Shown here: in pieces, positions 5,201 to 8,200 of the stretch | Numbering within the stretch: the stretch's first letter is position 1 | Layout of the letters: each line of letters opens with the position of its first letter | Assembly (NCBI GenBank): GCA_020091685.1 | Contig: CM034605.1 | Location: 25,140,470-25,204,469 of the forward strand | DNA: 64,000 nt | Direction of reading: 5' to 3' | Source of the DNA: Lutjanus erythropterus | Taxonomy: Eukaryota > Chordata > Actinopteri > Lutjaniformes > Lutjanidae | Notes under the pieces: model-generated | Databases searched by the model: none | What the model was told of the DNA's origin: nothing | What the model saw: the letters and a program-made list of their open reading frames with translations, nothing else | Translations under genes and position numbers: made by a program

Positions 5201-8200
5201 AAAATTAATGAGACGTGTACAAACTTTTGACTGGTGCTGTATATAAATTGTCATTAAAAATAGGAGTAAGAGTGTTAAAGTTTTGAGGTAGGACATGATT
5301 TATCCCAATTCTCAAGAACAGGTGAATGAGAAGTGAAATTAAATTGAGGTACCGTTGAGTAAATTCTAATACATTCCTTTGATAAAGCTCTATGGAAAAT
5401 AAACAATATTTTAAAATAAATCTACAATAAGATAAACAAGCAATAAAAAAAACAAACAAACAATAAAATTAAGGTTACAGCTGTCCATTACCATTTCCAT
5501 CAGGTCTCGTTAATCACACACAAACAAACTTGAAGAGTGCTCATGGCTTTACCAGGTTGTAACCAATGGAGATAAGGCAGGTTTTGAAGTCTTCAGCATC
5601 CATGATTCCTGATCTCTTCTACAAGGTCAGCGATGAGACAAGGAGGACGAGGAGGAGGAGGAAGATGGAGAGGAGCAGGGACAGTGGAGGAAAATGGTCA
5701 GGAGAGTAAAGGGTGAACAAAGAGTAGAATTAAGGAGGGAAGCAGCAACAGTCCACAGTGTGGAGGTTGGAAGGTGAAATCACAAAGGGAATTTAGACCA
5801 CAGGGATCAGCAGTAAAGGTGGGAATAACAGGAAAACAGGAAAGAAATACAAGGGGGGAAAAGTACAAAAGAAAAAAAAAAGAAACCAGTTAAACTTCTC
5901 ACAGCGGGGGTGTGGCTACGTTTAAGTACCTGTGCATCGTTGGCGATATCGAAGCCCAGGCTGATCAGGCAGGCCTTGAACTCCTCCGCGCCCAGAGTGC
6001 CCGAGTGGTCCTGGGGTGTGGGAGGCCAGTGTCAGGCGAGGCGTCGGGGGGCCACAGGCCATGCAGCAACACATACAGCGGTGTCAGTGACGGTGAGGAG
6101 GGTGGATGAGGTGGGACGGACGGAGGAGGTGGGTGGGTGAGGTGGTGTTGGAGGAGGGAGTGCATCATGCACAGGAGAGGAGGAGGAGGTGAGGGTGGGT
6201 GGGTGTGGGGGAGGGGGGCCATGCACAAGATAGAAAACAGAGAACACAGTGCATATTCATTAGGATCTGGCAGGTGAACACACGGTGGCAGCAGTGCTGC
6301 CATGCTGGCGAGGGCATTCAGAGGCGTTAATGTGCAGTGGTGCAGGCAGACTACAGGGCCCTGTGGTGGGGTTATTCATATCACCGATGGCACACGTACT
6401 TAACGTCACAAAATATTCTCTTCTGACATAAAAGAAATATATATCTATTTACCTTTGTTGTACAGCATCAAAGCAAACACATCAGTCACATTAATTTTCC
6501 CTTAAACTTGTTAACATAAATGTAAATATGCAGATGAGGGCTGCAGCTAACAATCATTTTTACTGATTATTTTCACTGTTTATCTATTAGCTGCTGGCCT
6601 GTATACAGAAACGCTGAGAGGCAAGTGAGAAAAATTAAATTTGGAAATGTTTCTCTCCTGTCTTTGTGACTTAAGAACAGGTGAAAAAAAGTTTTTGCTG
6701 AGATAATCTGCCTAAATTCCTTCATTTTGTTCTACATAGGGCAAAAAGCATTCATGCACATATATGTTACATATATGTAACTTGTGTTTAGAGTGCATGG
6801 AGAGATTAAAACTCACCTGGAAAAGAAAACATGAATGCTTTTAGTTCTATTAAGAACCTGGTGACATGGTGCGCGTCAGCCTCCTGTGGCCAAAATGAGT
6901 ATTACAACAACAAATGCAGAAAAATTATCCTGATCCTGAAAAAATTAAATAAATGAATAAATAAAAAATCACCTAACTCAAGATTTAAATGCACAATATG
7001 CAGGTTCTGCTGCTTGGGGTCTCTCACATTAAAACAATAACAAAAGACCCCAGAGACATTTAATATTTAATTTTTGTATTTTCTATAACATGTCTAGAAA
7101 AAGTGAGAAAACAGTGGAAAACATGAATCCCAGCGCCCTAGAAGCCAAGGTGACATCTTCAAATACCTTGTTTTGTCAGACCAACAGCGCAAAACCCAAA
7201 GATATTTAATTTGCAGCAGTTTGATGACGTTCTGAATCAGCGTGGGATCATGGGAGTTGCTGTTTTCATTGCTAAACAACCACCATTGCAGATGAATATC
7301 TATCTGACATGACACAGCTGAAAAATCCTGTTGAGTACACAACTCAACAAAATATGTGTCGTGTTTTTAGACATTTTAGTGCATAAATGTTACATATCAT
7401 AGTTTTAAGGAAATTAGAACGCAAATCCTGGAAAAAACCTTTTTTTTTCATCTGTTCAGTTCTTGAGTCATAAACACAGAAGAGAAAACAACTTGGATCA
7501 GACTGTTTTTTCTCTCTTGCCTCTCAGAGTTTCCGTACCTATAATATGTCAGCAAAAAAAGTCAAACATTAGTTCCAGACGCTCAGGTTACACCTTAAAA
7601 TGTCTCATTTTGTGTGATATACAATCTAAAACCCAAACATTTTCAGCCAAATATCATACAACAGAATGGAAAAGCATGGAAAAGCTTAAATGAGTGATTT
7701 GGTATAAGAAATAGATCAGAGACACAGTAGTTTGGGGGAATTTTACTGTTTTTCCAACTTTCCCTGAGTCAGAAACTAATAAATTCCTCTGGACAGACCT
7801 TTTCTATGTATTTGTTGTAGTCTGAAGTTATGTCAAACAGAAATATGAAGCTATCTCGGCTCCATTGTTTGGTGTCTCTGTGGTATCAAATAATATAATC
7901 ATGATCCCACAGACATCCAGGAAGTGAGAAAAACCTAAGCTGAGAGGAGGCCCACAGTCTCAGACCCTGAAGACCCTTGACAAATAAAAAGACTTAATCA
8001 TAATAACTCAATCTCTCAACTAACTGATACAGCAACTTATTCTTTCAGCTCTGCAAATTATTCTTTTCACTATAGATTAACCTGTTGTTCTGTTTTGGTG
8101 TATTTAATTGATTGTCTATAAAATGTGAGAAAATAGTGAAAGACATCCTTCTTAATTCCCTAGAAGCCAAAGTAAAATCTTAAAATAGCTTGTTTTGTCA

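Follow-up and report, generated by a model that had tools for sequence, protein, structure and literature searches.

Sequence layout of a teleost actn1 EF-hand exon switch points to the distant-branch-point design of rat and human ACTN1

Results

A Teleost actn1 with an In-Frame Pair of EF-Hand Exons

The window, meaning the whole 64,000-nucleotide stretch of Lutjanus erythropterus DNA analyzed here, lies on contig CM034605.1 (C15). Judged by the exons it encodes, its minus strand carries teleost actn1. In comparisons with the PDB, the located exons scored 1497 bits against chicken smooth muscle alpha-actinin (1SJJ) versus 1275 bits against full-length ACTN2. The comparison with ACTN4, which is present in the PDB solely as fragments, was restricted to the actin-binding part, where ACTN1 (2EYI) scored 196.5 versus 178.7 for ACTN4. 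Human ACTN1 (2N8Y) was the top match of the non-muscle (NM) exon. These matches, together with the exon frames, bore out the gene identity and the muscle/non-muscle exon assignment proposed in an earlier note on this DNA. Two actinin exon queries of the 938 Mb assembly gave four matches each, and from the resemblance of the exon peptides to human sequences we take the contigs to carry actn1 (C15), actn4 (C4), actn2 (C16), and actn3 (C23). The actn1 exons were placed via their reading frames, giving 17 located acceptors, a count from which the first exon and several CH-domain exons are excluded.

The exon preceding the alternative pair (HIRV...FNHFDR; 11005..11151, minus) has its 3' end on a whole codon. 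It is followed by the NM exon (5930..6010, minus; 81 nt, 27 residues), which encodes a calcium-binding EF-hand loop and has the donor CAG/GTACTT, and then by the 311-base NM-SM intron (5619..5929, minus), the muscle (SM) exon (5553..5618, minus; 66 nt, 22 residues), and a further exon (3516..3674, minus). The SM exon has Lys at a calcium-ligand position, the loop ligands being assigned by comparison with PMC4435478 (in excerpt). The order is therefore NM with the calcium loop upstream and SM without it downstream, both in frame. With 81 and 66 bases, the two exons preserve the reading frame whether either one, both, or none is included, and exclusion could therefore not be enforced through decay of frameshifted mRNA. 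Of the 16 gaps separating located actn1 exons, only one is shorter than the NM-SM intron. The SM acceptor is a NAGNAG (TAG/AAG; window 5621-5616, minus), and use of its second AG would remove one lysine. At gathering thresholds, Rfam returned no match for the window. Elsewhere on the minus strand, open frames at 53975-53823 and 7803-7657 both carry KRSVQR(H/N)LLVSDSG and perhaps belong to a dispersed repeat.

An AG-Free Zone of 274 Bases Precedes the SM Exon

Upstream of the SM acceptor (AG at 5620-5619), the intron is free of AG for 274 bases (5621..5894, minus) that are 79% pyrimidine; the tract and its richness in T and C had both been described correctly in the earlier note. The zone is bordered sharply by sequence of normal AG density, with AGs at 5917-5916, 5899-5898, and 5896-5895, all three within 35 bases of the start of the intron, and then none up to the acceptor. 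Such a sharp upstream border is the pattern of verified distant-branch-point cases (PMC1431707, in excerpt). A uniform expectation of one AG about every 16 bases, used previously, was wrong for this zone and was replaced by a composition-matched one: its letters predict 2.96 AGs, and zero were found in 3.7% of composition-keeping shuffles (P = 0.037). GA, the same letters reversed, occurs five times. The bare 274-base tract is just mildly unusual given its composition, and the absence of AG upstream of -85 (P = 0.064 in the actn1 SM zone and 0.22 in that of actn4) is weak taken alone.

No other AG-free gap on the minus strand of the window, where 4,161 AGs occur, is as long as the SM zone. A longer AG-free stretch, 288 bases with 54% T, lies on the plus strand (59345-59632) with no located exon beside it, and zone length alone was dropped as evidence. 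The length is not unique; what raises the zone above chance is its position at the SM acceptor, since zones span 18–82 bases at 14 of the 17 acceptors located in actn1. The PTB-type runs noted earlier were indistinguishable from plain pyrimidine richness, as the PTB motif TCTT was not enriched in the SM zone (5 observed versus 8.5 in composition shuffles). The pyrimidine-rich composition would itself be favourable to predicted repression by PTB.

Long Zones Mark the Alternative Acceptors of actn1 and actn4

An AG-free zone of similar size, 254 bases (6013..6266, minus), which the earlier note had overlooked, precedes the NM exon. The SM and NM acceptors are two of three outliers among the 17 in actn1, the third being the acceptor of an exon at 22284 (233 bases). 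In actn4, the NM and SM acceptors have zones of 194 and 243 bases. For actn2 and actn3, the 20 kb read of each gene contained an SM-type exon alone and no NM partner; the zone before this exon is 17 bases in actn3 and an intermediate 111 bases in actn2 (C16). The 35 further acceptors in actn2, actn3, and actn4, again from 20 kb read per gene, have zones of 17–68 bases. Across actn1–actn4, 52 of the 53 acceptors outside the NM/SM pairs have zones of 17–111 bases, and zones of at least 190 bases occur at four of four NM/SM acceptors versus one of 53 others (Fisher P = 1.3e-5, with the actn1 and actn4 zones possibly inherited from one ancestor and so not four independent cases). Long zones are thus a mark of the alternative exons in actn1 and actn4, NM and SM alike, and are almost absent from their located neighbours. 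Scans of GTDB genomes and IMG/VR confirmed no fish orthologue.

The one exception, the 233-base zone at 22284 (22519-22287, minus), lies before the actn1 exon LLEWIRR..., for which no partner is known, and includes a CA repeat. It contains a strong branch candidate, TGCTGAC, at -186. The equivalent acceptors have AG-free zones of 42 (actn2), 42 (actn3), and 32 bases (actn4), and the site was not kept as a third distant branch point, the paralogues being without a long zone.

Branch candidates in the NM zone are CACTGAC at -74, TCCTAAT at -250, and GCCTGAC at -22. Relative to dinucleotide shuffles, the zone is rich in CAC (20 versus 15.7, p = 0.003), overlapping CACN1-12CAC (14 versus 7.9, p = 0.007), and TGTG/TGTT (8 versus 3.8, p = 0.007). 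Its three TGCATG (RBFOX-type) motifs (6060..6225, minus), versus 0.2 expected, were matched in 0 of 400 shuffles; nowhere else on that strand of the window do three of them fall within 170 bases. Equal CAC density was found in three other regions of the minus strand, all with CA repeats (longest runs of 36, 66, and 19 bases), and the longest CA run in the NM zone is 5 bases; the zone at 22284 is also CAC-rich (21), but via its CA repeat. The fish NM zone matches mammalian Actn1, where CAC clusters lie upstream of the NM exon (PMC6613909, in excerpt). The zone holds both the CAC clusters and the UGCAUG motifs that predicted repression of the NM exon by RBPMS and RBFOX would call for.

Candidate Branch Sites in the NM-SM Intron

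At the start of the SM zone, directly 3' of two AGs, lies the candidate distant branch site GTTTAACTGG (5886..5895, minus; intron bases 35–44). Its branch-type A is at 5890, intron base 40, or -272 relative to the SM exon, and the 30 bases that follow are 87% pyrimidine and 73% T. Sites were scored with a weight matrix taken from Gooding (PMC1431707, in excerpt) and with a second matrix, from the same paper, built on 19 mapped human sites. The head site, GTTTAAC, conforms to yUnAy and ranked sixth of 39 with the first matrix (3.90 bits) and seventh with the second (4.39). It was outscored in both by TCCTGAC (5697..5703, minus; A at 5698, -80 from the SM exon), which had 7.72 (rank 1 of 39) and 5.97 (rank 2). 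With the first matrix alone, it was also outscored by TGCTGAT at -189 (6.84; second matrix, 4.24) and CCTTAAT at -112 (5.92; second matrix, 3.55). CGCTGAC at -9 scored 7.45 bits with the first matrix and is too near the exon. The earlier placement of a branch site about 37 bases from the NM donor was thus close in position; its identification as the branch site was overstated.

Motifs common to the SM introns of actn1 and actn4 were found by comparing k-mers and their distances; plain alignment of the two introns aligned neither candidate branch site. TTAACTG heads the SM zone in both genes (chance about 0.8% in shuffles). CTGAC occurs at -80 in actn1 and at -81 in actn4 (ATCTGAC), with a shuffle chance of about 0.03%; for the two genes to share any identical yURAy at this place, the chance is 0.26%. 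All three values are post hoc, and those for the -80/-81 site are smaller than that for the head motif.

Comparison with actn4, tpm1, and Other Known Exon Pairs

The actn4 gene of this genome resembles actn1 in its homologous NM and SM exons, in the AG-free zones before both, and in TTAACTG at the head of the SM zone, which there lies within TGTTAAC, the best-scoring branch site of that zone. Unlike actn1, its NM-SM intron is 1,696 bases long and places the head site 1,467 bases from the NM donor. Steric exclusion is accordingly not expected there, despite both zones, and an AG-free zone can exist without the steric geometry. The comparison supports the earlier reading of the AG-free zone and counts against that of donor proximity. 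The actn4 NM zone also differs in having no CAC enrichment (4 versus 5.1 in dinucleotide shuffles), and TGCATG occurs in it once. The actn4 SM exon (L006:6996-7061) encodes a diverged peptide, KRSGQMVSDDFRALLISTGNSL, unlike the CLISMGY/CLISIGY seen in actn1, actn2, and actn3; this exon may be losing its role. Within the actn4 NM-SM intron, an imperfect 21-base inverted repeat (86%; L006:5347-5367 and 6541-6561) brackets 1,173 bases. The repeat could represent the ends of an insert or could pair into an RNA stem with the intervening bases looped out. A mobile-element origin of the extra stretch was rejected, as it is single copy in the genome at the sensitivity of the search.

The exons that we take to be tpm1 2a and 2b (C12, L024) served as a positive control. 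The intron between them spans 191 bases; the A of TCCTAAC lies at its base 33, and 2b is preceded by an AG-free zone of 165 bases. This is the classical layout of TPM1 exons 2/3, and the actn1 layout is alike. The tpm1 head site is the best-scoring there (7.19 bits), in contrast to the weak actn1 head site (3.90 bits), with strong sites also at -41 and -14. The zone before tpm1 2a is an ordinary 64 bases, versus 254 before the actn1 NM exon, so a long zone is not general to alternative exons. Rat and human ACTN1 share with the fish the gene, the NM-then-SM order, the SM peptide that loses a calcium ligand, and a long AG-free zone before the SM exon. The rat branch sites are said to have been placed by Southby et al. 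in 1999 at -382/-386 (SM) and -191 (NM); set against these positions are fish zones of 274 and 254 bases and a branch point that is a candidate. In a different gene, OGDH, exons 4a/4b form a calcium-sensitive/insensitive pair with human branch points 25–41 bases from the donor and a large pyrimidine tract, and about 280 was termed the canonical AG-free size in the fish comparison (PMC7969005, in excerpt).

Discussion

With moderate confidence, we read the locus as a teleost EF-hand exon switch built like the distant-branch-point design of rat and human ACTN1. The SM exon would most likely use the distant branch point TTTAAC at the head of the 274-base zone, about 40 bases from the NM donor, a placement that we infer from its position. 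The T-rich stretch immediately 3' of this site would act as its polypyrimidine tract, and AGs would be kept out of the zone by the use of the first AG 3' of the distant branch point by the spliceosome. With so little room between the branch point and the NM donor, U1 and U2 would be hindered from engaging both in one transcript, so that NM-to-SM joining would be disfavoured and each transcript would contain one exon. Tissue choice would be set by both zones. The SM exon would be repressed via its long pyrimidine tract, and the NM exon would be repressed in muscle via the CAC (RBPMS-type) and TGCATG (RBFOX-type) sites of its own 254-base zone. The mammalian precedent invoked in the earlier note holds, the distant branch point of rat alpha-actinin having been verified experimentally (PMC1431707, in excerpt). 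Support for the fish reading comes from orthology, the near restriction of long zones to the NM/SM acceptors, the sharp AG border, TTAACTG in both paralogues, and the tpm1 control. It is further supported by the shortness of the NM-SM intron, the enrichment of CAC and TGCATG before the NM exon, and the retention of frame in all NM/SM combinations.

A steric threshold of about 50 bases between branch point and donor has been proposed (PMC7969005, in excerpt); should the head site be the principal branch point, its distance of 40 bases falls under this value and would disfavour direct NM-SM joining. Exclusion need not be absolute, since human brain has an ACTN1 transcript containing both exons (PMC4435478, in excerpt). 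The earlier statement that the two exons could not be spliced together would hold only with the head site as the sole branch point. That transcript, together with the in-frame nature of NM+SM double inclusion, fits a possibility we entertain more tentatively and which is compatible with either a distant or a nearer main branch point, namely that several branch points are used. The distant one would then serve joining of the upstream exon to SM and a nearer one would be used at times, giving some NM+SM transcripts. Introns with long AG-free zones have multiple mapped branch points (PMC2991248, in excerpt), and the head and -80 sites are both echoed in actn4.

We judge it rather unlikely that branching for the SM exon occurs closer by, at TCCTGAC (-80) or at the -112 or -189 sites, at least 123 bases from the NM donor. 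In that case the AG-free zone would be a long regulatory pyrimidine tract and exclusion would be due to repressor proteins rather than steric hindrance. The same facts that weaken the distant-branch-point reading favour this one: the head site is weak, the -80 site scores higher with both matrices, and its CTGAC is shared by the paralogues at -80/-81 with the smaller chance value. The 79% pyrimidine content also accounts for much of the absence of AG, and actn4 retains its zone though the donor is distant, a distance that likewise tells against the steric part of the favoured reading. The ordinary zone of tpm1 2a, TCTT at a level not above composition, and the human double-exon transcript weaken the favoured reading further. 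With a branch point at -80, however, the AG-free bases upstream would have no cause save composition, and in tpm1 of this genome the classical distant site is accompanied by strong ones at -41 and -14. For human PTB exon 11, moreover, the site at -351 proved essential, whereas a high-scoring one at -51 could be mutated without consequence (PMC1431707, in excerpt). It is very improbable that the tract is pyrimidine-rich by chance and plays no part in splicing: AG-free sequence does occur by no located exon on the opposite strand (288 bases), and the 233-base zone at 22284 is absent from the paralogues, but the same actn4 exons have long zones that 52 of 53 other located actinin acceptors lack.

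Under the distant-branch-point reading, the two paralogues may amount to a natural experiment. In actn1, a candidate branch point about 40 bases from the NM donor would impose steric exclusion; actn4 has the same AG-free layout on both exons, and the same head motif before SM, with about 1.4 kb more between donor and branch region. The distant branch point would then be kept mainly as a platform for control by repressors and not for exclusion. This proposal, which we advance with some doubt, predicts in-frame NM+SM transcripts from actn4 but none from actn1. The actn1 findings are expected biology, a known mammalian ACTN1 design seen in fish sequence, and the contrast with actn4 is a useful addition; a literature search, judged mostly from search entries, found no paper treating this intron in fish. 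The layout extends a classic mammalian splicing rule to fish at the level of sequence. Within one genome, actn1 and actn4 allow donor proximity to be told apart from the distant branch layout, and whether a distant branch point serves exclusion or regulation becomes testable by ordinary RNA-seq.
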